Source: Campylobacterales bacterium (lineage in GTDB: Bacteria > Campylobacterota > Campylobacteria > Campylobacterales > Nitratiruptoraceae). Taken from it: 42,594 bases of DNA. Location of the stretch: assembly GCA_027082175.1 (NCBI GenBank), contig JALWIX010000078.1, positions 1 to 42,594 of the forward strand, written 5' to 3'. The stretch's first letter is position 1. The number at the start of each line of letters is the position of its first letter. Shown here piece after piece: positions 21,851 to 35,630 of this stretch. The translations under genes and the position numbers were made by a program. The notes beneath the pieces are model-generated. The model searched no databases. It had not been told where the DNA came from and was given only the letters and a program-made list of their open reading frames with translations.

Positions 21851-22929
21851 GAAAATTTATAATAACGGTTTTTTTAAGCGCATTAACGCTTTTTGCGAGT
21901 CAAACTATAACTTTAACAAAAAATCAAATTGAAAATTGGCAAATTAAGAGTAAAAAGATAGAATATACCAATGAGATTCCTTTAGGAGAGTATCTATCTC
22001 AGATAAAGGCTCCTCCATCAATGATCTATTCCGTATCTTTACCTTTTTCCGCTACTGTAGAAAAATTGGAAGTTGGCGAATACGATTTGGTACAAAAAGG
22101 AGCCATTTTAGCCAAAGTTACTTCAAAAGAGTGGATTGAAACTCAAAATGATCTAATCAAACTAAATATTGAGTTATCAAGAGTAAAAATAGATTATGAA
22201 AGAAAATCAAAATTATGCGAAGAGGGCATCATTCCTCAAAAACAGTGTCTTTTTTCAAAAGCGGAATATGAAACAATCAAAAATGAGTTTAAAAGCAAAA
22301 AATCGCTATTGAAGCTTTACGGCGCAACAGATAAAGATATACAAGATATCTTAAAAAATGCCAAAATCAAAAAAAGCCTGGTTATAAAGGCCCCCACACG
22401 AAGCATTGTTAGTAAGCTGCACGTAAATGTCGGCTCAACCACGGAAACTTCAAATCCTTTATTAACGCTTATATCCACTGAAAAAAAGGTTTTAGATATT
22501 TATATGCCGCTTAATACTTCTAAAAATCTAAACATTGGACAAAAAGTTAGGCTTTCTCTAAATTCTTATAATTTTAATAGTCGCGTATTAAAAAAATCAA
22601 AAATAATAAACCCGCAAAATCAGACTCAAAGAGTTAGATTTTTTGTTCCTTCAGATTTAGATTTGCTACTTGATTACAAAACAAACGCAAAAATCAAGAT
22701 ATTAAAAAAAGCTTTAAAAATACCAAAAATAGCCGCTATTTACATATCTAAAAAATATTATATCTTCAAAGAAACCGAAAAAGGTTTTGAACCGATAGTC
22801 ATAGAGATATTAGCTGAAGATAAAGAGTTTTTCTACGCAAAACCAGATAATAGATTAGAAAGTAACGACAAAATAGTGGTAGAAGGCGCAATGGTTCTTA
22901 AAGGTATGATGGAGGAGACAAATGATTGA
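21847..22929 (+). CDS. Periplasmic adaptor, CzcB-like (first RND system)
   Basis: Membrane-fusion protein linking the pump to the outer-membrane factor. The 360 residues have a signal peptide (about 1-18), a biotinyl-lipoyl half motif (VEKLEVGEYDLVQKGAILAK), a short helical hairpin (about 98-165), the second lipoyl half (APTRSIVSKLHVNVGSTTE) and beta-barrel domains. It lacks the Met-rich N-terminal copper segment of E. coli CusB. Overlaps the pump gene by 8 bases. Confidence 0.88.
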   Translation: MRKFIITVFLSALTLFASQTITLTKNQIENWQIKSKKIEYTNEIPLGEYLSQIKAPPSMIYSVSLPFSATVEKLEVGEYDLVQKGAILAKVTSKEWIETQNDLIKLNIELSRVKIDYERKSKLCEEGIIPQKQCLFSKAEYETIKNEFKSKKSLLKLYGATDKDIQDILKNAKIKKSLVIKAPTRSIVSKLHVNVGSTTETSNPLLTLISTEKKVLDIYMPLNTSKNLNIGQKVRLSLNSYNFNSRVLKKSKIINPQNQTQRVRFFVPSDLDLLLDYKTNAKIKILKKALKIPKIAAIYISKKYYIFKETEKGFEPIVIEILAEDKEFFYAKPDNRLESNDKIVVEGAMVLKGMMEETND

Positions 22930-25900
22930 TAATATCATTAAATTTTCGCTCTCGCAAAGACTTTTTATACTGTTGTTGGCTCTAATAATACTTGGTTTTG
23001 GCATTAAGTCGTATAAAGAGCTTCCTATTGACGCTTTCCCGGATATTTCGCCTACTCAAGTTAAGATTATTATAAAGTCAAGCGGTATGACGCCATCCGA
23101 AGTAGAATCGCGTATAACTACGCCTATAGAGCTTGCTATGCTAGGCATCCCACACCAAAGTATCGTAAGGTCTATTTCAAAATACGGACTTTGCGATATA
23201 ACAATAGATTTTGAAGAGGGTACCGATATTTACTGGGCTAGGCAACAGGTAAGCGAAAGATTAAACTCTATAAAAGATGAGCTTCCAAAAAATATAGAAG
23301 GCGGTCTTGCGCCTATTAGTACTCCGCTAAGTGATATATTGATGTTTACTATAGAATCGGACAAACTCTCTTTAACTGAAAAAAGAACTATTCTCGATTG
23401 GATTATAGCCCCAAAAATCAGAAGTATAAACGGAGTTGCGGAAGTAAACTCCTTAGGCGGTTTCGTAAAAACATATCAAGTAACTCCCAACTTAGAAAAA
23501 ATGCAGGCTTTTGGCATTCACATGGATATGTTAAAAACCGCTCTTCAAGAAAACAATATTAACGATGGAGCGGGAAGAGTAACTGTGGGACCAGAGAGTT
23601 TTTACGTTAGAAGCGTGGGAAAGATTGAAGATATAGAAGATATTAAAAATAGAGCGGTAAAAAAAATAGGCGATAAAATCATAAAAGTTAAAGATATCGC
23701 AGAGGTGAGCATCGGACACCTAACAAGAGCCGGTTTTGTAACAAAAGACGGAAAAGGCGAAGCTGTAGAAGGGATAGTTCTTTCACTCAAAGGCGCTAAT
23801 GCCGCAAAAGTTATAAAAGAGGTTAAAGACGAATTAAAAAAAATGGAAAAATCATTACCCGAAGGAACTTCGATAAAACTTCTATATGATAGAAGCGAGC
23901 TTGTAAATATCGCCACACATACGGTTAAAAAAGCTCTTATAGAAGCGGTGGTTTTGATCGTTGTGATACTTCTTGTGATGCTTGGAAATATAGCTTCTGC
24001 TATCTCAGTCGCCTTAATACTTCCTTTCGCTTTGCTTATGAGTTTTATCGCTATGAAAATGTTTGGACTTAGCGCAAATCTTATGAGTTTGGGAGGACTT
24101 GCCATAGCGGTCGGAATGCTGGTTGACTCGGCAGTTGTTATGGTAGAACACATAACGGCTGAGTTGGGAAATCCAAAGCATAAAAAACAGACAAAAACAG
24201 ATATTATTTTAAGAGCGGCTAGAGAGGTTGCCCCCTCTATCGTAACGGGAGTTTTGATTATTATTATAGTTTTTATGCCTCTTTTGACGCTTGAGGGACT
24301 AGAGGGAAAACTCTTTAAACCCGTTGCGCTAAGCATCGTTTTCGCACTTTTTAGCTCTCTTGTTTTAGCCATAACTTTAATACCTGTATTTAGCTATATG
24401 ATACTAAAAATTAGACCTGATAAAGAGTCTTTTGTTATGAGATTATTGCTAAAAACATATAAACCTTCCCTACTTTTTGCCATCAAAAACCAGTGGCTTG
24501 TTGTGTTAACCGCCTTTATTTTAATGGGAAGCGCCGTATATATGTTTACTCAAGTTGGTAAAACTTTTATGCCTACGATGGATGAAGGGAGTATTATTAT
24601 AGGGATAGAAAAAAACCCTTCTATAAGTCTTGATGAGAGTAAAGTTATGGACCTAAAAATACAGCAAAAGATTCTTAAAGAGGTTCCGGAAGTAATCTCT
24701 ATAGTTGCTAGAACGGGAAGCGACGAACTTGGTCTTGACCCGATGGGATTAAACGATACGGATACTTTCTTAGTGCTCAAACCAAAAGATGAGTGGAGAA
24801 AACCGGATAAAGAGTGGCTAATAAACGAGCTTAGAAAAGTTTTAGAAGAGTTTCCTGGCATTGAATATAGTTTCACTCAGCCCATAGAGATGAGAGTTTC
24901 GGAGATGCTAACCGGCGTTAGAGGCGATCTTGCCATAAAGATTTACGGAAGCGATCAAGATGTTTTAAACGAACTTGGAAAAAAGATAAAAAAACTTTTG
25001 GAAAAAGTTCCGGGAAGTACGGACGTGTATAAAAAAGCAAATGAGGGTTTTGAGTATCTAGAACTTGTTTTCAACCACAACGCTTTAGGACTTTACGGAG
25101 TTAGCGAAGCCGAAATAGCAACATATTTAAAAACGCTTATTGATGGGGTTAAGATAGGAATTATACAAGAGGGTATGAGAAGAGTTGATCTAGTTATAAA
25201 AGGAGAAGAGACTCTGCAAAAATCGATCTCAAAACTTAAAAAGTTAAACTATACTTTGCCAAACGGCAAAACTGTTCCTTTGACTCAACTCGTAATGTTC
25301 AGGCAAACCGGCGGCCCGGTTCAGATTGAACATGAAAAAGGGCTTAGAAAAACGGTAGTGCAAAGCAACGTAGAAGGAAGAGACCTTGTAGGATACGTAG
25401 AAGACGTTAAAAAACTGATAGATAAAGAGATAAAACTTCCGGCCGGCTACTTTATAGAGTATGGCGGAGAGTTTGAAAATCAGCAAAGAGCGGCAAAAAG
25501 ACTTATGATAATTGTTCCTATTTCGATTTTTATGATATTTATACTGCTTTTTATGTCTTTTAACTCTTTGACGCAAGCTCTATTGGTTTTAGTAAACATA
25601 CCTTTGGCCTTAGTCGGAGGAATTGCCGGTCTATATTTTACCGGAGAGTATCTATCCGTTCCGGCTTCAGTCGGCTTTATCGCACTTCTTGGTATAGCTA
25701 TACTTAACGGAGTCGTAATGGTAAACTATTTTAATCAACTAGTATTAAACGGTATGAGCGTAAAAGACGCGGTAATTACAGGAGCTATGAGAAGATTAAG
25801 ACCCGTTTTAATGACGGCTCTAATTGCCGCTTTAGGTCTGCTTCCACTAATGTTTGCAACGGGTCCAGGTTCTGAGATACAAAGACCTCTAGCCATAGTC

Positions 25901-25993
25901 GTTATATATGGACTCGCTAGCTCCACTATGCTTACGTTGGTAGTCCTTCCTATTTTGTATCTTAGATTTATAAAAGATATAAACAATAAGTAA
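22922..25993 (+). CDS. Heavy-metal RND efflux pump, CzcA-like, not copper type
   Basis: Proton-driven inner-membrane pump of the HME subfamily. The 1023 residues have the usual duplicated layout. TM4 carries GGLAIAVGMLVDSAVVMVEH with proton-relay D402. Aligned by eye with CusA, the three copper methionines are absent: G561, an Asp in the GLNDTDTF segment, and Glu in RVSEMLTG. This favours divalent cations (Zn, Co, Cd, Ni) or another substrate over Cu/Ag. The end coincides with the start of a strong terminator hairpin. Confidence 0.92.
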   Translation: MIDNIIKFSLSQRLFILLLALIILGFGIKSYKELPIDAFPDISPTQVKIIIKSSGMTPSEVESRITTPIELAMLGIPHQSIVRSISKYGLCDITIDFEEGTDIYWARQQVSERLNSIKDELPKNIEGGLAPISTPLSDILMFTIESDKLSLTEKRTILDWIIAPKIRSINGVAEVNSLGGFVKTYQVTPNLEKMQAFGIHMDMLKTALQENNINDGAGRVTVGPESFYVRSVGKIEDIEDIKNRAVKKIGDKIIKVKDIAEVSIGHLTRAGFVTKDGKGEAVEGIVLSLKGANAAKVIKEVKDELKKMEKSLPEGTSIKLLYDRSELVNIATHTVKKALIEAVVLIVVILLVMLGNIASAISVALILPFALLMSFIAMKMFGLSANLMSLGGLAIAVGMLVDSAVVMVEHITAELGNPKHKKQTKTDIILRAAREVAPSIVTGVLIIIIVFMPLLTLEGLEGKLFKPVALSIVFALFSSLVLAITLIPVFSYMILKIRPDKESFVMRLLLKTYKPSLLFAIKNQWLVVLTAFILMGSAVYMFTQVGKTFMPTMDEGSIIIGIEKNPSISLDESKVMDLKIQQKILKEVPEVISIVARTGSDELGLDPMGLNDTDTFLVLKPKDEWRKPDKEWLINELRKVLEEFPGIEYSFTQPIEMRVSEMLTGVRGDLAIKIYGSDQDVLNELGKKIKKLLEKVPGSTDVYKKANEGFEYLELVFNHNALGLYGVSEAEIATYLKTLIDGVKIGIIQEGMRRVDLVIKGEETLQKSISKLKKLNYTLPNGKTVPLTQLVMFRQTGGPVQIEHEKGLRKTVVQSNVEGRDLVGYVEDVKKLIDKEIKLPAGYFIEYGGEFENQQRAAKRLMIIVPISIFMIFILLFMSFNSLTQALLVLVNIPLALVGGIAGLYFTGEYLSVPASVGFIALLGIAILNGVVMVNYFNQLVLNGMSVKDAVITGAMRRLRPVLMTALIAALGLLPLMFATGPGSEIQRPLAIVVIYGLASSTMLTLVVLPILYLRFIKDINNK

Positions 25994-26016
25994 TATACGG
26001 GCTTAGCCCCGTATAT
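25993..26016 (+). terminator. Rho-independent terminator after the first RND operon
   Basis: ATATACGGG (25993-26001) pairs perfectly with CCCGTATAT (26008-26016) around CTTAGC, followed by TTTGTCTATTTTGTC. It separates the two efflux operons. Confidence 0.75.
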
Positions 26017-26050
26017 TTGTCTATTTTGTCTCTTACACGCTTTTTCCACA

Positions 26051-26102
26051 TATAAAAAGTTATCATTTTCCGTTCAAAAACCAGACAAAGGATGGAAAAT
26101 GA
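26051..26102 (+). promoter_or_regulatory. Promoter and start-codon dyad of the copper efflux operon
   Basis: TATAAA at 26051-26056 is a possible -10 box. Downstream, TCATTTTCC (26063-26071) is exactly repeated in inverse as GGAAAATGA (26094-26102). The right arm contains the ATG of the YtkA-like gene and the loop contains the RBS AAGGAT. It could be a translational switch or an operator for the response regulator encoded downstream. Confidence 0.4.
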
Positions 26103-26473
26103 GACTAAAAACAATTATTTTGACTATGTTTTTAGTTGTATCCTCTTATGCTGCAGGGTTCCAAAAGCATATTAAATACAGAGGTTTCAATGTAGAATTT
26201 ATTTCTACAAAACCGCTAACTTCTGGAGAAAACAGTTTGACCTTAAAAATCAGCAAAAAGGGTTTAAATCCAAAAGAGGTCAAAGTAAAGTTTTTTATGC
26301 CCGCAATGCCTGGAATGCCATATATGGAAAATTTTGCAAAAGTCAAGCCTTTAAAAGATGGAGAATATCTTTTAAATGTAAAGTTTCCAATGAGAGGAAC
26401 CTGGCAGGTACACATTTTTGTTATAGACAAGAATGGGAAAAAGTATAGAGTTAAAACTTCGGTGAGTTTTTAA
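26099..26473 (+). CDS. Met-rich YtkA/FixH-like periplasmic protein
   Basis: A 124-residue exported protein with a signal peptide (1-19, ending SYAAG) and an immunoglobulin-like YtkA-type domain. The loop MPAMPGMPYM (67-76) places four methionines three residues apart, a typical Cu(I) or Ag(I) ligand arrangement, and W102 and H105 in GTWQVHIFV lie on the closing strand. As first gene of the CusA operon it probably scavenges or hands over periplasmic copper, in the role CusF plays in E. coli (inference). It lies 1 base before the outer-membrane factor gene. Confidence 0.82.
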   Translation: MRLKTIILTMFLVVSSYAAGFQKHIKYRGFNVEFISTKPLTSGENSLTLKISKKGLNPKEVKVKFFMPAMPGMPYMENFAKVKPLKDGEYLLNVKFPMRGTWQVHIFVIDKNGKKYRVKTSVSF

Positions 26474-26474
26474 A

Positions 26475-27656
26475 ATGAAACTCCTTTTAATTTTTATACT
26501 TTCGGCGTCTCTTTTTGCCGAAAGTATAGAGGATATAGTCAAAACGGCTTTAAAAAACAGTCCAAATCTAAAATCTATAAAAGAACTGTTACGGCTAAAA
26601 GAGACAAAAACCAAAAGAAGCAAAAATCTTCAAAATCCTGTTTTAAAAATAGGTATTAACGATTTAAGATTGGATAACCCATCAAGAAGAGATTTAGAAC
26701 CTATGCAAAGCGAATATATATCTATTAAACAGCAATTTCCATATTTTGGAAAAAGAGATTTGGATAAGAGATTGGCTATAATCGAAAAAAATATCACTTT
26801 TGCAAACTATCTGGAAGCAAAAAGCTATCTTGTGAAATCTATATATTTAAATATCGCAGATTATATAGAAATAAATGAATCTTTGAAAATTTTCAATAAA
26901 TATATAGACTTGACAAAACAGAGTATCGATCTTTATAGATCATTTACCATAACTAACGATTCAAGTCATCTTTTTTTAATGAAATCAGAACTCTTTTTGA
27001 CAAATTTGAAAACAAAAACAGTAGATTACAATTCAAAAAAAGAGGAGATTTTACAAAATATCTCATATATAGCCTCAAAAAAATTAGTGAAGATAGATTA
27101 TGATATTAACCGTTTATCAAAAATCGATTTTAAAGGAGTAAAAAAGAATCCAAAACTAATAGCTTTAAGTGAAAAAATCAAATACCAAAAACATAAAATT
27201 GCAAGAGTAAAACTGGATAAATTTAGCGATTTTGCCATAGAACTAGGATATTACCGTAGAGATAAATTTCAAGATTATATCTCTTTTGGGATATCTTTTT
27301 CACTTCCAATTTACGGAACAGAAAGTGTAAGGTTGGAAGAAGAGAAGATAAAAAAAATCTCTTTAAGTATGAAAAAAAGAGATTTTGAAAACTACCTTCT
27401 AAGCAGACTGACTTCACTCAAAATAAGATACGATTCATTAAAAAAGAAAATAGAACTGATTGAAAAAGAGAGTCTTCCCAAAATAGAACATATGTTTGAA
27501 CTAACAAATGCCGGTGTAATCTCAGGCAGCACACTTTTTAAATATATAGACACACTAGAAAGAAGATTTAATCTTGAGTTGAAACTTATTAGATTTAAAG
27601 CGCAACTTATTAGGACGAAAGCCCAAATTTTATGGCTGGAAGGGAGAACTCAATGA
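26475..27656 (+). CDS. cusC: Outer-membrane factor of the Cus-type system
   Basis: TolC-family channel subunit, 393 residues, with a signal peptide (about 1-15, ending LFAES) and coiled-coil OEP repeats. The segment YISIKQQFPYFGKRDLDKRL is common in CusC/CzcC-like factors of copper operons. No lipobox Cys. It shares little obvious sequence with the first system's factor. The stop overlaps the adaptor ATG (ATGA). Confidence 0.83.
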   Translation: MKLLLIFILSASLFAESIEDIVKTALKNSPNLKSIKELLRLKETKTKRSKNLQNPVLKIGINDLRLDNPSRRDLEPMQSEYISIKQQFPYFGKRDLDKRLAIIEKNITFANYLEAKSYLVKSIYLNIADYIEINESLKIFNKYIDLTKQSIDLYRSFTITNDSSHLFLMKSELFLTNLKTKTVDYNSKKEEILQNISYIASKKLVKIDYDINRLSKIDFKGVKKNPKLIALSEKIKYQKHKIARVKLDKFSDFAIELGYYRRDKFQDYISFGISFSLPIYGTESVRLEEEKIKKISLSMKKRDFENYLLSRLTSLKIRYDSLKKKIELIEKESLPKIEHMFELTNAGVISGSTLFKYIDTLERRFNLELKLIRFKAQLIRTKAQILWLEGRTQ

Positions 27657-28630
27657 GAAGTTTAATTATGCTTATTCCTCTGATGCTCTTTTCGCAAGAG
27701 ATCAATATAGAACAGTTATTTAACGTTAAAACCACAAAAGTTATAGAAAAAACGGTTAGCGAAAAGAGAAGCTATTATGGCTTTTTAAAGCTTGATGAAA
27801 AAAAAATCTACGATATTGCCCCTAGATTTGGTGGATATATAGAAAAACTTTATGCAAAAGAGATCTATCAAAAAGTAAAAAAAGAAGAAAATCTTGCAAA
27901 AGTTTATAGTCCAGAAGTCTATAGAGCAAAAGAGGAGTATGCAAGCTCTTTGATATACAAACGGGATAAGAAAATGATAGAGGCTACATTTGAGAAGCTA
28001 AAACTTTTAGATATTGATAAAAATGAGATCGAAACAATCAAAAAAACTAAAAAATCATCTGCTTATACATTTATAAAATCTCCTATAGATGGATTTATTA
28101 TAAAAAAAAGTGTAAATAACAAAAGTTCTTTTAACAAAAAAGAAAAAATTTTTCAAATTGCAGATATGTCAACGCTTCAATTTTTGGCAAAAATTCCACA
28201 AAAAGAGATATCTTTTGTCAAAAAAGCTCAATATTTCAATATCTACATAGATATACTAAATAGATATTATTATGGGAAAAACCTTCATATATATCCTATT
28301 ATTTCTAAAAATGATTCTTTTATAACCTTAAAAATAGATATAAAAAATGACGGAGAGCTAATAGCAGGAATGTATGCAAAACTTGAAGTTGGTTTGAAAG
28401 ATAAAAAATTTCTTCTAATCCCAAAAAGTGCCGTTATAAGAAAAGATGGAAAATGGTATGCATTTAAAGTAGGAGAATTTGAAGGAGAATATGAGCCGGT
28501 AGAGATAGAAGTAAAACCGCTAAACAATAAATTCTACAAACTAATTTCAGGATTGCAAAAAGGGGATGAGATAGCAGACAGTGCTATGTTTTTGTTAGAT
28601 AGCGACGCACAAATAAACGGACTATTTTAG
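27653..28630 (+). CDS. cusB: Periplasmic adaptor, CusB-like
   Basis: Membrane-fusion subunit for CusA. I choose the ATG at 27653 (325 residues) over the in-frame ATG at 27632 for three reasons: it follows GAAGGGAG at good spacing, it overlaps the upstream stop as ATGA, and it gives a clean signal peptide MRSLIMLIPLMLFSQ. Family features are RFGGYIEKLYA, VYSPEVYRAKEEYASSLIYK (the CusB PEL-AQ-EY motif), SPIDGFIIKKSVN and a C-terminal FLLDSDAQINGLF. It stops 8 bases before cusA. Confidence 0.88.
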   Translation: MRSLIMLIPLMLFSQEINIEQLFNVKTTKVIEKTVSEKRSYYGFLKLDEKKIYDIAPRFGGYIEKLYAKEIYQKVKKEENLAKVYSPEVYRAKEEYASSLIYKRDKKMIEATFEKLKLLDIDKNEIETIKKTKKSSAYTFIKSPIDGFIIKKSVNNKSSFNKKEKIFQIADMSTLQFLAKIPQKEISFVKKAQYFNIYIDILNRYYYGKNLHIYPIISKNDSFITLKIDIKNDGELIAGMYAKLEVGLKDKKFLLIPKSAVIRKDGKWYAFKVGEFEGEYEPVEIEVKPLNNKFYKLISGLQKGDEIADSAMFLLDSDAQINGLF

Positions 28631-28638
28631 GATGTAAA

Positions 28639-31600
28639 ATGATTGAAAAAATTATAGAGTACAGCATCAAAAACAGAGTAGTGATTTTTATAATATTTGC
28701 AATATTAAGTTTGCTATCTATTTATTCAATCAAAAATACGCCACTAGACGCCATACCGGATCTTTCCCCTCCACAGGTAATAGTTCAAGTAAAGTGGGAA
28801 GGACAAAGTCCAAATATCATAGAAGACCAGGTAACCTATCCTCTGGTAAGCTCTTTTTTAGGTATTTCAGATATTGAGACCGTAAGAGGCTTTTCTACTT
28901 ATGAAAATGCTTTGATTTATATTATTTTCAAAGATGGGGTAGACCTTTACTGGGCTAGAAGCAGAGTTTTAGAAGAGCTCTCTTCCATCGCCTCATCTTT
29001 GCCAAAAGGTGCCGAAGTATCTTTGGGACCTGATGCTTCAGGTGTTGGCTGGGTTTATGAGTATGCACTTATTAGCAAAACAAAAGATCTTGGTTTTTTA
29101 AGAACTTATCAAGACTATACTCTAAAATATGCTCTTACAGCCATAGATGGTGTAAGCGAAGTAGCTACTATTGGGGGATTTGTTCCTAATTTTCAGGTTA
29201 CTGTAAAAAACGATGATCTTATTAGATACAGTTTAAGTGTAGAAGATATCATAAAAACTCTAAAAAGCAACAACAACGATACTGGCGGCAGGGTCATACT
29301 AAAAAATGGCTATGAATGGATGGTTCAAGCCAGAGGATATATAAAAAGCTTACAAAATATTGAAAATCTGACAATAAAAACTCAAGAAAAAATTCCTCTG
29401 AGAATAAAAGATGTTGCAAATGTTGAAATAGTGGCATCTCCTAGAAGAGGTATGGCTGATTTAAACGGTGAAGGTGAAGTAGTTGGTGGCATTGTTATAG
29501 CAAAATATGGCGCGGATGTGTACAACACTATCAAAAATATTAAACAAAAGATAAAAGAGCTACAAACAGATGATATAAAAATAGTCCCGGTTTATGATCG
29601 CTCTAAGCTCATAGAAGACTCCATAGAAAATCTAAGAAATACACTGATAGAAGAGAGTATCATTGTTATTATTATTATTGCCCTGTTTCTTTTTCATTTT
29701 AGAAGCTCTTTTATTTTGATTATAGTTTTACCGTTGACCATAGGTTTGACATTTTTACTTATGAAACTTTTTGGTATCGGATCTAATATTATGAGTTTAG
29801 GAGGAATTGCCATAGCGATAGGAGCTATGGTTGATGCTTCTATAGTTATGATTGAAAATGCACATAAAAAAATAGATGAAATAACACAGACAAAACTAGA
29901 GATTTCAAACAAAGAGAGGCTTAAGGCAATATTGGAATCTTCAAAAACCGTTGGAAGACCGATATTTTTCGCACTAGCACTTGTAGTTATCTCTTTTTTA
30001 CCAATTTTTGCTCTAAAAGGTCAAGAAGGATTACTGTTTTCGCCTCTTGCCTTCACAAAAACATTTGCTATGAGTGCCGGAGCTTTGATAGCTATAACCT
30101 TAGTTCCTGCACTGATGGTTATTTTTATAAAAAAGGTTCCTAAAGAGTCCAAAAATCCTATTAACAGATTTTTTATCTGGTTATATCACCCATTTTTAGT
30201 TTTTGCTATGAAATTTAGATACTTGGTTTATGCCGCTGCAATAGCAGCACTCTTTTTTTCATACCCTCTTTATCAGAAACTAAAATGGGAGTTTATGCCT
30301 CCTTTAAATGAAGGGGTATTGATGTATATGCCAGTTACTCCTTACGGCATAAGTGTAGACCTTAGCAAAGAGCTTACACAAAAAACAGACAAGATTATAA
30401 AAAGTTTTCCGGAAGTTGAGACCGTTTTCGGAAAAGGAGGAAGAGCTGATACTGCAACAGACCCAGCTCCTTTATCAATGATAGAGACTATTATAACTTT
30501 GAAACCTAAGAGCCAATGGCGAGAGGATATGAGTATTAAAAAATTAATAGAAGAGCTGGATGACTCTTTGCAAATACCAGGGCTGGTAAACTCTTGGACA
30601 TATCCCATAAGAGGTAGAATAGATATGCTTCTTAGTGGAATTAGAACTCCTGTTGGAATAAAACTTTATGGGGACGATACAAAAAAACTACAAGCTTTGG
30701 CAAAAGAGATAGAAGAGAGATTGAAAAACCTAAAAATAACAGAGTCTGTTTTTGCCGATAGAAGCGATACAGGATATTTTATAAATATAGATATTGATGA
30801 AGAGAAACTATCTTTATATAATCTAAATAAAAATAGTGTTTTAAATTTTGTCAGCAGTGCCATAGGAGGCAAAAAAGTTACAACCTATATAAAAAATTTA
30901 GAGAGATATCCGATTTCCGTTAGATTCGACGAGGAAGAAAAAAGAGATTTAGAAGATATAAAAGAGCTTAAAATCAAAACCGATTACGGTTATATTCCTT
31001 TAAAAGAAGTAGCAAATATTTACTATAAGCAGAGTTCTTCTGTCTTGAAAAGTGAAAAAGCAAAACCGGTTACATATATTTATATTACTCCTATAAATGG
31101 AGTCAGCGGAAGCGAATATAAAAAAATGGCTGAAGAACTTTTAAAAGATATAAAACTTCCTGCAGGATACTTCTATGAGTGGGCAGGAGAATCGAAGTAT
31201 CTTGAAAGTGCTATGGAGACAATCAAGTGGATAGTACCTACAGTTTTGGTGATAATTTTTATCTTGATATATCTTGCACTAAATGAACTAGTTCCAACTT
31301 TTATCGTTTTTACGACTCTTCCTTTTGCTTTTTTGGGTGGTCTGTTTTACATTGATTTTCTAAACTTCAATATGAGCATAGCTGTTATCGTAGGTTTTTT
31401 AGCTCTATTGGGTATAGCTGCGCAAACAGCCATTGTTATGATAATATATTTAAAAGAAAATATTCGTAATATAATAGAAAACGAAAAAAAATTAAATAAT
31501 AAAGATATTTATAAAGCTATATATGAAGGTGCAGTAAAAAGAGTAAGACCGAAGCTAATGACAGTTTTTGCCATACTTGCTGGACTATTCCCTATTATGT

Positions 31601-31770
31601 TTAGTAATGGAATTGGAAGTGAAATTATGCAACGTATCGCAGCACCAGTTATTGGAGGAGTTATTTCTTCAGCCATTTTGTCTTTAATAATTATACCTAT
31701 TATATATATGAGTTATATTAAAATCAAATTTAAAAAAAGGCTAGATACAAATGAAAATACTTTTACTTGA
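28639..31770 (+). CDS. cusA: Copper/silver RND efflux pump CusA
   Basis: Proton-driven exporter of Cu(I)/Ag(I), 1043 residues. TM4 reads GAMVDASIVMIENAHK, the HME4 monovalent-metal signature, with relay D399. The three methionines that bind copper in E. coli CusA (M573, M623, M672) are matched by M564 (LMYMPVT), M614 (APLSMIETI) and M663 (RIDMLLSGI). ATG at 28639 follows AGGAT. Its end overlaps the response regulator gene by 20 bases, so pump and regulator are one transcript. Confidence 0.95.
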   Translation: MIEKIIEYSIKNRVVIFIIFAILSLLSIYSIKNTPLDAIPDLSPPQVIVQVKWEGQSPNIIEDQVTYPLVSSFLGISDIETVRGFSTYENALIYIIFKDGVDLYWARSRVLEELSSIASSLPKGAEVSLGPDASGVGWVYEYALISKTKDLGFLRTYQDYTLKYALTAIDGVSEVATIGGFVPNFQVTVKNDDLIRYSLSVEDIIKTLKSNNNDTGGRVILKNGYEWMVQARGYIKSLQNIENLTIKTQEKIPLRIKDVANVEIVASPRRGMADLNGEGEVVGGIVIAKYGADVYNTIKNIKQKIKELQTDDIKIVPVYDRSKLIEDSIENLRNTLIEESIIVIIIIALFLFHFRSSFILIIVLPLTIGLTFLLMKLFGIGSNIMSLGGIAIAIGAMVDASIVMIENAHKKIDEITQTKLEISNKERLKAILESSKTVGRPIFFALALVVISFLPIFALKGQEGLLFSPLAFTKTFAMSAGALIAITLVPALMVIFIKKVPKESKNPINRFFIWLYHPFLVFAMKFRYLVYAAAIAALFFSYPLYQKLKWEFMPPLNEGVLMYMPVTPYGISVDLSKELTQKTDKIIKSFPEVETVFGKGGRADTATDPAPLSMIETIITLKPKSQWREDMSIKKLIEELDDSLQIPGLVNSWTYPIRGRIDMLLSGIRTPVGIKLYGDDTKKLQALAKEIEERLKNLKITESVFADRSDTGYFINIDIDEEKLSLYNLNKNSVLNFVSSAIGGKKVTTYIKNLERYPISVRFDEEEKRDLEDIKELKIKTDYGYIPLKEVANIYYKQSSSVLKSEKAKPVTYIYITPINGVSGSEYKKMAEELLKDIKLPAGYFYEWAGESKYLESAMETIKWIVPTVLVIIFILIYLALNELVPTFIVFTTLPFAFLGGLFYIDFLNFNMSIAVIVGFLALLGIAAQTAIVMIIYLKENIRNIIENEKKLNNKDIYKAIYEGAVKRVRPKLMTVFAILAGLFPIMFSNGIGSEIMQRIAAPVIGGVISSAILSLIIIPIIYMSYIKIKFKKRLDTNENTFT

Positions 31771-32401
31771 GGACGATATTTTGTTAAGTAAACTAATTAA
31801 AGAACATTTAATGGAGAAAGGATATGACATAGTTCACTTTTCAAATGGTGAAGATGCTTTTGAATTTTTATATGAAAAAAAAGTAGACCTAATATTATTA
31901 GATATAAAAGTTCCAGGTATCAGTGGTTTTGAAATACTTAAAAAACTTAGAGAAAATAAAAATACTACTCCGGCTATTATGATAACGTCAGCTAATAGCA
32001 GCAAAGACGTAAAAGAAGGCTTTAAACTAGGATGTGATGATTATATAAAAAAACCTTTCGATTTTGAAGAACTAGACGCTAGAATAGAACATATATTGAA
32101 ATTATTTAATATTATTGATACTACAATAGATTTAAAAATATTAAAGTTTGACCATAAAAGGCATCTGCTTATTTTTGAAGATAGAGAAATCTTACTAACT
32201 CCTAAGGCATCAGAGATTTTGTATTATCTTTATAAAAATAGAGGAAAAATAGTAACTAAAGAAGAGTTAATACAAAATATATGGAATTATAACGAAATAC
32301 CAACTGAAGCGACTATAAGAAGTTATATAAAAATGCTGAGAAAATATATACCTTTTATCAAAACTTATAGAGGAATAGGATATGAGCTTGAGCTATTATG
32401 A
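31751..32401 (+). CDS. OmpR-family response regulator of the copper operon
   Basis: The 216 residues contain a receiver domain with acidic pocket E7/D8/D9, phospho-acceptor D51 (LLLDIKVPG), the switch T79/S80 and K101 (KKPFD). The winged-helix DNA-binding domain (about 122-216) ends RSYIKMLRKYIPFIKTYRGI. Its coupling to cusA and to the kinase gene makes control of this operon by periplasmic copper likely (CusR-like role, inferred). Low CpG content matches the rest of this module. Confidence 0.92.
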   Translation: MKILLLEDDILLSKLIKEHLMEKGYDIVHFSNGEDAFEFLYEKKVDLILLDIKVPGISGFEILKKLRENKNTTPAIMITSANSSKDVKEGFKLGCDDYIKKPFDFEELDARIEHILKLFNIIDTTIDLKILKFDHKRHLLIFEDREILLTPKASEILYYLYKNRGKIVTKEELIQNIWNYNEIPTEATIRSYIKMLRKYIPFIKTYRGIGYELELL

Positions 32402-33524
32402 AAAAAGGTCTCTTTTTCGTTTTATGTGCATATATATTAGCTCTGTTCTGATAGTAATAATAGGTTTTGGTATGCTATTTTATGTTGTTGAAATTGAATC
32501 TTATAAAGATAAAGTTTTCAATAAATTGAGAATCGAAGCTTTCAAAATTGTATCATCAGCTATAGATGCGCATATGAAACAAAAAAAATTTACCATTCCA
32601 AAAAATTCGGACTTTATGCTTCTAGATAAAAATAAACAATTTATCGACGGTACTTTTAAAGAAGAAGTAGATACAAAAAAGGACTTTTTCATTAAAAATG
32701 GAAGTGCTTATTATGTAGATAAGGGAGCTAAAGGACATCTTGGAATAAACTTTATAGTTTTAAAAGACAAAGACTTTGAAAATTATCTTAAATCAATATT
32801 TAAAAAAACTATTTTTATATCTTTATTTGCTTTTATTTTTTTAATGTCCGTCGGCTGGTATCTTGGAAAACTTTTTTTAAAACCTATGAAAGAAAAAATC
32901 AAAGAGCTAGATAAATTTATAAAAGATAGTACACATGAACTAAACACTCCTGTTACCTCTATACTTTTAGCAACCCAAAAAATTGAACAAAAAGGTGCAA
33001 ATCCAACTTATGTAAAAACATTAAAAATGAGTTCCAAACTAATTTCAAAAATATATCAGGATATGAGTTTTATATCTTTCAATCAACATAGCAATTGTGA
33101 AAAAAAATTGGTGGATATATCTAAAAAATTGGATAATAGTCTGGATTTTTTTGCTCTTTTAATAGAACAGAAAGATTTAAAAATAAAAAAAGAAATAAAT
33201 CCTTGTCATATAAAAGCAGATCCTAATCATATAGATATTTTAATAAAAAATCTTGTAGATAATGCTATCAAATATGCAAAACCAAATAGTATTATCACGG
33301 TAACTTTAAAAAATTGTACATTATCAGTTACAAATGAAGGAAAAACCATTAAAAACGATAAATTATTACAAATTTTTGAAAGATATGAGAGAGATGATGA
33401 AACTACAGGAGGCTTTGGAATAGGTCTTGATATAGTATCCACCATCTGCAAAAAATACCACTTCAAAATAGATGTAATATCTAAAAATGATGTTACAACC
33501 TTTAAAATATTTTTCCTTCAATGA
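32382..33524 (+). CDS. Sensor histidine kinase of the copper operon
   Basis: The 380 residues have TM1 (about 12-36), a periplasmic domain of about 105 residues, TM2 (about 142-164), then directly the dimerisation helix with H185 in DSTHELNTPVTS. No HAMP domain fits in the 20-residue gap. The ATPase domain has the N box KNLVDNAIKYAK and the G2 box GGFGIGL (343-349). The G1 region reads VTNEGKTI, without the usual D-x-G-x-G. Overlaps the regulator gene by 20 bases. Probably senses periplasmic Cu or Ag from context alone. Confidence 0.9.
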   Translation: MSLSYYEKRSLFRFMCIYISSVLIVIIGFGMLFYVVEIESYKDKVFNKLRIEAFKIVSSAIDAHMKQKKFTIPKNSDFMLLDKNKQFIDGTFKEEVDTKKDFFIKNGSAYYVDKGAKGHLGINFIVLKDKDFENYLKSIFKKTIFISLFAFIFLMSVGWYLGKLFLKPMKEKIKELDKFIKDSTHELNTPVTSILLATQKIEQKGANPTYVKTLKMSSKLISKIYQDMSFISFNQHSNCEKKLVDISKKLDNSLDFFALLIEQKDLKIKKEINPCHIKADPNHIDILIKNLVDNAIKYAKPNSIITVTLKNCTLSVTNEGKTIKNDKLLQIFERYERDDETTGGFGIGLDIVSTICKKYHFKIDVISKNDVTTFKIFFLQ

Positions 33525-33656: not shown

Positions 33657-35630
33657 ATGGAATATATAAATATTTTAAAAAAGCATTTACCTTTCATATT
33701 AAAAAATATAAAATCTTCTATCTATAACGATCCGACAATTTATCAATTTGTATCAAAAGAGGAGCTTGAAAAGCTCTTAAATATTCAGGAAAAACTTATA
33801 GAAGATTATCTGCTATCTTTTAACGAAAAAAGTCTTGATGAAAGAAAGTGTTATCAGTTTTACAAAGACTTAACAATACCTTATGCGATAATTATAAAAA
33901 GCCTTAATCTTTTAAAAACTGAACTTTTAAAAAAACTAATACTAGAACTAGATAAGAGTTTAATTGCGGAACTAAATCAACATTTCCAATATTTTATAGA
34001 TTTAGTCGCTAAAGTTTATCTAAAAAAAGAGATAACAAGTTTTAAAAACAGAAAACAGCTAAATGATTACTATCTTTTAACGGCCCACAAAGACTTTTTA
34101 AACAAAATCATTGAAGTTATTCAAAAAGACGATATCTCGCTTTATCCCATAGACACCGCCGATAATTGCCAATTTATAAAATATATGGAGTATTTAGAGT
34201 CTATGATGGTCTGTATGGATATAAATTTGTGCAACTATTTACACGATCTTCATACGCTTTTGCATAAATTGGCCAACTCATTTTACTTTTTTTATAAAAG
34301 AGGCTCGTATAATGAGGCTTATCTGGTATTTAAAGATTTCAAAGAGATTGTTTTCAAATTTGAAAACGTTATCGTCGAACTACATTTTGTAACTTTTACC
34401 GATCTTGAAGGAAGTTTTTTTAAATTTATTGAGATATATAACTCTCCCGGAAACGAATATATAACGATGATTGATCTAAAAGGGTTAAAATATCTCAACC
34501 AAATATATTTAGAAAGCACAGTGACAAAAGCTATAAAAATTGTTGAAGAAAAAATAAAAAACCTTCTAAGTCAAAAAGATAAATATCTGGTAATTAGAGG
34601 CATTACCGCCGATTTTTATATATACTCCTCAAATGTTTTAGAAAGCGAATATATAGAGATTATAGAACATATAAAAAATCTGATAGAAACTCCCGTAAAA
34701 GTTGATGATAAAACGGTTACGTTAAGCCCTATAATTATCGGTATACAAAAAGATGAAAGCATAAGCATAAAATCAAATGAGTATATAAAAATATTTCATT
34801 CATTAAAAAAGAGAGCTAAAGAGGAAGGCATACAGAAAAATCTCTTGCTAGACGAAAAAGGAAAAAAGATTTTACAAAATTTTTTAAGCGACAAATACGA
34901 TATGAGTTTTATTAAATCAAAAATAGACAACGAACAAATAACCCTACATTTTCAACCTATAGTCACTACCGAAAAAAAAGAGTTATTTGCTATTGAAGCG
35001 TTAGCTAGAATAAAAGATTCTAAAAGACTTATCCCAGCCGGAGTTTTTATAGAAAGAGTTTTAGAGTTTGATCTAATCGATCAATTTGACATAGCGATTT
35101 TACGACATATTTTGGAAATGAAAGAAAAAATCCAAAAAGCCGCTCCTAGACTGTTTATAAATATAAACGCGCAATCTTTAAAAAACTCTACATACATAGA
35201 ACTTTTAGATCAAATCTTAAATACTTTAAATATAGAAATAATCTTAGAGATAACTGAGCAAACGATGCTTTATAATTTAGAGCTAATTCAAACGATACAT
35301 AAAAAACATAACGTTTTTTTTGCCGCAGATGACTTTGGCACAGGTTATACCTCCATAAAAACCATAACGGATATGGCTAAAAATAAAATATTAAAGGTAT
35401 TAAAGATTGACGGTAGTTTAGTAAAAAATATGCATAACGATATTTATGATCAAAAAACTATCAATGTAGTGGCTCACCTTGCAAAAGAGTTTGGATTATA
35501 CAGTGTAGCCGAATTTGTTGAAAATGAAAAGATTTTAGAACTTTTAAAATATAACGGCATAGAGTTTGCCCAGGGTTTTCATATAGCTAAACCTATGGAT
35601 TTAGATGAAATCCTACTAAATTTTAAGTAG
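33657..35630 (+). CDS. Degenerate-GGDEF/EAL protein, probable c-di-GMP phosphodiesterase
   Basis: A soluble 657-residue signalling protein. The N-terminus (1-240) is all-helical and of no family I recognise. It contains C171, C186, C192 and H196, H199, H203 in a short span. A GGDEF-fold domain follows (about 245-405), but the active site reads RGITADF, so cyclase activity is unlikely. The EAL domain (about 415-657) keeps E447 (EALARI), N503, E531/E534, D558/D559 (DDFGTG), K583/D585, E619 and Q639. It therefore probably hydrolyses c-di-GMP. Expressed alone from its own promoter. Confidence 0.9.
   Translation: MEYINILKKHLPFILKNIKSSIYNDPTIYQFVSKEELEKLLNIQEKLIEDYLLSFNEKSLDERKCYQFYKDLTIPYAIIIKSLNLLKTELLKKLILELDKSLIAELNQHFQYFIDLVAKVYLKKEITSFKNRKQLNDYYLLTAHKDFLNKIIEVIQKDDISLYPIDTADNCQFIKYMEYLESMMVCMDINLCNYLHDLHTLLHKLANSFYFFYKRGSYNEAYLVFKDFKEIVFKFENVIVELHFVTFTDLEGSFFKFIEIYNSPGNEYITMIDLKGLKYLNQIYLESTVTKAIKIVEEKIKNLLSQKDKYLVIRGITADFYIYSSNVLESEYIEIIEHIKNLIETPVKVDDKTVTLSPIIIGIQKDESISIKSNEYIKIFHSLKKRAKEEGIQKNLLLDEKGKKILQNFLSDKYDMSFIKSKIDNEQITLHFQPIVTTEKKELFAIEALARIKDSKRLIPAGVFIERVLEFDLIDQFDIAILRHILEMKEKIQKAAPRLFININAQSLKNSTYIELLDQILNTLNIEIILEITEQTMLYNLELIQTIHKKHNVFFAADDFGTGYTSIKTITDMAKNKILKVLKIDGSLVKNMHNDIYDQKTINVVAHLAKEFGLYSVAEFVENEKILELLKYNGIEFAQGFHIAKPMDLDEILLNFK

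Follow-up and report, generated by a model that had tools for sequence, protein, structure and literature searches.

The stretch analysed here (hereafter the window) is a contig of 42,594 nucleotides that carries, at positions 26099-33524, a six-gene cluster encoding a YtkA-like protein, a CusCBA-type efflux pump and a two-component regulator. The contig, C78, comes from a draft genome (G000; 1.83 Mb, 115 contigs) and was assigned to Campylobacterota from its relatives. G000 and its sister species G003 were grouped in one Nitrosophilus-like genus, with G001, G002 and G004 as congeners; G005 belongs to another genus of the same family, and G006-G009 form the Nitratiruptor group. In this study, the cluster was found to be depleted in CpG, to occupy a site that is empty in a congener, and to be a mosaic in its divergence from the sister species. 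It was probably imported recently, in at least two events, from lower-CpG members of its own genus or family. The features of the locus are as follows.

25992..26017, + strand: terminator-like hairpin (10 pairs, T-rich tail) ending an older operon of the resistance-nodulation-division (RND) type, tolC1-mfp1-rnd1
26033..26098, + strand: leader of the copper cluster and left edge of the putatively exchanged tract (break at 26032)
26033..31422, no strand: tract that differs from the sister species by 3.3%, flanked by segments of 9.1% and 19.6% (two-change-point fit)
26099..26473, + strand: ytkA, YtkA-like protein with an MPxMPGMPxM motif (PF13115, E 1.9e-19), proposed periplasmic metal partner
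26475..27656, + strand: cusC, CusC-like outer-membrane channel (PF02321)
27632..28630, + strand: cusB, CusB-like adaptor lacking the N-terminal region of the E. coli protein (PF16576)
28639..31770, + strand: cusA, CusA-type RND pump (TIGR00914); the 3' end, from about 31423, is a more diverged allele
31724..31750, no strand: site of a P-type ATPase insert of about 2.2 kb in G003 and three Nitratiruptor-group genomes, missing here
31751..32401, + strand: OmpR-type response regulator (RR; PF00072, PF00486)
32382..33524, + strand: sensor histidine kinase (HK; PF02518), right end of the low-CpG segment

From the encoded proteins, the cluster appears to be a CusCBA-type efflux island that includes a two-component regulator, and Cu(I)/Ag(I) would be its substrate. 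The pump scored 986.8 bits against TIGR00914 (cut-off 701.45), which places it among the CusA/CzcA heavy-metal RND proteins, and its best match in the PDB is CusA, over the full length. It carries the Met triad M564, M614 and M663, positions which we take to be those of the periplasmic metal site of E. coli CusA, and the 25 related loci all keep the three methionines. The neighbouring pump, rnd1, has other residues at the aligned positions, and its best solved match is ZneA. The MPxMPGMPxM motif is kept in all 21 aligned rows (the window plus 20 of 25 loci yielding a YtkA match). The YtkA-like protein may act as a periplasmic metal partner that passes the metal to the pump, with RR and HK as the probable switch that turns the pump on. 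RR scored 132.4 bits against TIGR01387 (cut-off 279.2) and HK 108.2 bits against TIGR01386 (cut-off 292.55), so neither is classed as a CusR- or CusS-type protein by these models.

Site of the cluster

The preliminary description of this DNA placed the cluster behind the terminator of an older operon, and the neighbouring genomes bear this out. The hairpin at 25992-26017 recurs in G003, where the cluster occupies the same site as in the window. In G001 the older operon and proA are directly adjacent: rnd1 is followed by a different hairpin, directly 5' of proA, with a clean junction and no cluster. G001 thus provides the empty site in a close relative by which a horizontal island can be recognised. 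G002 has other genes between the ABC gene and proA. Close homologues of the cluster were not found in G001, G002 or G004, the last of which is 85% complete. The gene order ytkA-cusC-cusB-cusA-RR-HK recurs in the four Nitratiruptor-group genomes, among differing neighbours. On the simplest reading, the cluster reached this site in the lineage that G000 and G003 share. As for the leader, a stretch similar to TTTTCCACATTTA precedes ytkA in loci L044 and L046, as compared by eye.

CpG depletion and mosaic divergence

The counts of CG dinucleotides from which the preliminary description started were exact on recount: 29 in 22921-23580, 10 in 28681-29340 and 8 in 31741-32400. The low-CpG character that it described from ytkA through the kinase was also confirmed, with sharp edges, starting at ytkA and ending before the EAL-domain gene at 33657. 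The observed-to-expected (o/e) CpG ratio is 0.65 in 26099-33524 and 1.13 in the remainder of the window. Gene by gene, it is 0.32 in ytkA, 0.85 in cusC, 0.74 in cusB, 0.61 in cusA, 0.75 in RR and 0.54 in HK, and among the neighbours 1.18 in rnd1, 1.14 in mfp1, 1.19 in tolC1 and 1.10 in proA. Against a background sample of 465 kb (about 25% of the genome), divided into 74 half-overlapping blocks of 7.4 kb with a mean of 1.06 and a standard deviation of 0.16, no block fell below the cluster; its composition is unlike that of the host, as would be expected of a horizontal island. The cluster has about half as many NCG codons (0.79-1.60 per 100 codons) as the genome sample (2.89), and the CGN codons of arginine are scarce in both alike.

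Genes with equally low CpG do occur in this genome, since 21 of 372 sampled open reading frames (ORFs) have an o/e ratio below 0.65. Judged from their translations alone, these are mostly restriction-modification, phage-like or sugar-nucleotide genes in appearance. Equally low values in many core genes, which would have spoken against a foreign origin, were not found: none of the 131 ORFs with a G003 ortholog, matched within the sampled 47% of the G003 chromosome, lies below 0.68 in the own genome. The depletion is uneven and needs qualification. It is just mild in cusC and moderate in RR, with 17.7% and 12.1% of the sampled genes lower, respectively, and certain core-like genes also stand at 0.68-0.75. 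Other CpG-poor stretches of the genome (L086 12500-20000; L094; L093 14000-19700; L063 3000-8300; L064 6000-11100) resemble restriction-modification, phage-like and sugar-nucleotide genes, and CpG depletion may prove a convenient sign of accessory DNA here.

We rejected the explanation that low CpG is intrinsic to the CusA protein, because cusA tracks the CpG level of its host in six of six relatives outside the genus. In G009, G029, G024, G005, G037 and G059, with background samples of only 40-60 kb each, the ratio of cusA to background ranges from 0.91 to 1.18; it is 0.56 in the window and 0.71 in the sister species. The EAL-domain gene (33657-35630), which lies between HK and proA and does not stand at that place in G003 or G001, has an o/e ratio of 1.30 and no ortholog found in the genus; its best non-self match is 29% (G024). 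On these two grounds it was rejected as a member of the cluster. It is a separate insertion with a native-looking composition.

Divergence from the sister species is not uniform along the locus. In the part that could be aligned, divergence is 9.1% in mfp1, rnd1 and the start of the intergenic region, 3.3% at 26033-31422, and 19.6% over the final 301 bases of cusA that align. The two-change-point fit placed the breaks at 26032 and 31422 (log-likelihood ratio, LLR, 103.8). The left break falls just past the terminator, where the leader of the cluster begins, and the right break falls within cusA. The right break alone, from 3.0% to 19.6% within this gene, gave an LLR of 53.6, compared with a maximum of 9.4 over 300 permutations. 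Identity to G003 at fourfold sites follows the same division: it is 0.88-0.95 in ytkA, cusC, cusB and cusA, 0.57 in RR and 0.68 in HK, and 0.69 in 22 flanking genes pooled. The preliminary description had the whole module gained as one unit, a claim that these internal breaks do not support. The strength of the argument lies in the abrupt local steps in divergence. Faster protein evolution of the window copy was considered as well, and no clear difference was seen (derived changes in G000 and G003, 47 versus 34 in the cluster and 62 versus 56 in the flanks). Elsewhere, further runs of genes reach fourfold identities of about 0.85-1.0, where the mean is 0.757 (G003 L249, L232 and L254 versus G000 L086, L090, L079 and L095), and these could possibly be further exchanged tracts.

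Source, timing and rival explanations

The CpGs found in just one of the two sister species bear on timing. The counts for G000 and G003 are 489:185 in 24 flanking genes of the window, 14:17 in ytkA-cusA and 10:14 in RR and HK, and both parts of the cluster differ from the flanks (Fisher p 0.0019 and 0.0021, respectively). Neither part has shared in the CpG drift between G000 and G003, which fits a late arrival in the window lineage. In models of codon usage plus CpG, trained on about 20-28 kb per genome, ytkA, cusB, cusA and RR fit G003 best and cusC and HK fit G005 best; all seven comparison genes, the EAL-domain gene among them, fit their own genome best.

The gene trees point to a source close at hand. 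In those of CusA (30 rows), CusB (26) and RR (22), the window groups with its sister and next with the Nitratiruptor group, to which CusA is 72-73% identical, and ClpB gives the same family-level picture. The conflict with the core tree that a horizontal island may show is therefore not seen at family level, apart from G005, which belongs to the same family and has its CusA on another branch; the HK tree (20 rows) does not decide. Agreement of the module's trees with housekeeping genes had been named beforehand as evidence against acquisition, and at family level such agreement was found for CusA, CusB and RR. The lower-CpG donor proposed earlier stands in part: the composition is foreign to this genome, and the trees lend no support to a distant source. 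A scan of named genomes likewise gave no support for a distant low-CpG donor, with Campylobacterota or unnamed bacterial records closest among at least 80 loci (63-68%) and others at 42-47%. Nor was a close match to a plasmid vehicle found, since all plasmid matches among the 5000 best records lay below 60%. A lower-CpG source would most plausibly lie within the genus or family; unless it was the lineage of G003 itself, the donor is likely to have been a close relative outside the sampled collections. Within the genus, CpG o/e varies widely: about 0.31 in G002, 0.83 in G003, 1.08 in G000 and 1.20 in one 6-kb locus of G001.

Taken together, we consider it probable that a copper-efflux island was recently imported into this Nitrosophilus-like genome, because its low CpG marks it as foreign there. 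The cluster would first have been inserted downstream of the older RND operon, between its terminator and proA, in the lineage shared by the window species and G003. Later, a 5.4-kb tract from the leader to most of cusA (26033-31422) would have been exchanged between the two lineages, or acquired by each from one shared source, with homologous recombination as the probable route, while the 3' end of cusA, RR and HK would represent a more diverged allele. Several observations weigh against this interpretation. The window holds no tRNA gene, none of the genes scanned between 20245 and 35630 has a mobile-element domain, and the ends of the cluster show no clear flanking repeat. The cluster of G003 is itself CpG-low (ratio 0.71; 4.9% of blocks lower), and therefore G003 is no perfect donor. 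Fourfold identity of at least 0.85 also occurs elsewhere, in 28 of the 131 sampled orthologs, so the tract is not alone in its high similarity to G003, and exchange or rate variation is not confined to the cluster. The species-specific CpGs are unpolarised, such that a gain in G000 and a loss in G003 count alike; the preference in the codon models is small, with 8.0% of own genes leaning further toward G003. RR joins the Nitratiruptor group at modest support (84/82), and the HK tree leaves the order of the window-G003 pair, the Nitratiruptor group and the Hydrogenimonas group undecided.

A gain of pump, adaptor, channel, YtkA-like protein and two-component system in a single step from a lower-CpG donor, with drift since, would agree with the low CpG of both mosaic parts (0.65 and 0.67), with the gene set and order conserved in the Nitratiruptor group, and with the empty site of G001. 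It is nevertheless unlikely, given the jump in divergence inside cusA and the contrast in fourfold identity between ytkA-cusA and RR-HK, and no donor from outside the family appears in the gene trees. It is possible that the window lineage gained the cluster once and that ytkA-cusA alone then passed to G003, which would rescue the single gain. Vertical inheritance within the genus, with loss from G001, G002 and G004 and low CpG through slow amelioration or local mutation or selection, draws on the family-level match of the CusA, CusB and RR trees with ClpB and on the identity of CusA to that of the Nitratiruptor group. We regard it as improbable: the junction in G001 is clean, the neighbours in the Nitratiruptor group differ, and cusA follows the host CpG in other genera. 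Moreover, flanking genes at the same positions differ in CpG between G000 and G003 and the cluster does not, and the mosaic requires exchange anyway.

An artefact of assembly or binning, in which the contig would be a chimera of two strains or species, could be suspected in a draft of 115 contigs with a tract resembling the sister species. Such an artefact is very improbable: a single contig holds the cluster together with core genes on either side, arranged as in G003; the tract and its G003 counterpart are still 3.3% apart; and neither break interrupts a reading frame. CpG also remains low past the right break, so a simple chimera would not account for the composition.

The P-type ATPase and relation to known copper systems

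Between cusA and RR, about 2.2 kb with a P-type ATPase bearing a CPH motif is present in G003 and three Nitratiruptor-group genomes (L043 11392-13619; L044 5372-7572; L046 11320-13520; L047 5107-7297). L046 and L047 have an open ATPase frame, L043 and L044 an interrupted one, and L045 (10131-10438) and the window lack the gene; a single P-type ATPase is encoded in the window genome, on contig C69. The pattern suggests repeated loss of the ATPase among these loci, and in the window the gene was probably lost rather than never present. In L045 and L047, the sequence just upstream of ytkA seems, by eye, to end a multicopper-oxidase-like frame (HCHILEHED). Such a protein may be an additional partner of the cluster in certain Nitratiruptor genomes.

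CusCFBA-CusRS of E. coli is a tripartite Cu(I)/Ag(I) RND efflux operon. The cluster shares with it a full-length CusA with the Met triad, a CusB-like adaptor, a TolC-type channel, and an OmpR-type regulator and kinase, all clustered. It differs in that CusF is lacking in the window genome (no match to PF11604, with the E. coli positive control detected) and in that CusB has no N-terminal region: the match to E. coli CusB begins at residue 91 of chain 3ne5_B, and only 28 residues precede it here. Unlike the E. coli system, it has a Met-rich YtkA-like gene first in the cluster and an RR and HK that fall below the curated copper-regulator cut-offs. The clusters of the Nitratiruptor group have the same gene order and a CusA about 72% identical. 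They differ in their neighbours and in having CpG near the host level in G009 (ratio 0.91), and three of the four carry the ATPase between cusA and RR.

In Bacillus subtilis, CtaK/YtkA and YcnJ, which has a YtkA domain, have a role in extracytoplasmic copper handling (PMC13344008). They share the PF13115 family with the protein described here; in B. subtilis they are tied to assembly of an oxidase copper centre, whereas the gene here accompanies an efflux pump. No paper joining YtkA, copper and CusA was found in the literature searched, which lacked most subscription journals. More tentatively, the copper cluster of Nitratiruptoraceae might be a recombining cassette, with homologous exchange between species and breaks within genes, repeated breakage and loss of the ATPase, and a YtkA-like protein that does the metal delivery of both CusF and the CusB N-terminus; we hold this broader picture to be doubtful.

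In sum, a low-CpG stretch can flag a recent import from close relatives where the genomes of a group differ widely in CpG, and one shared composition does not imply a single transfer. A YtkA-like protein would stand in for CusF in this cluster, which makes it a candidate variant of the Cus system; it also offers a testable case of metal-resistance genes moving among hydrothermal-vent bacteria.

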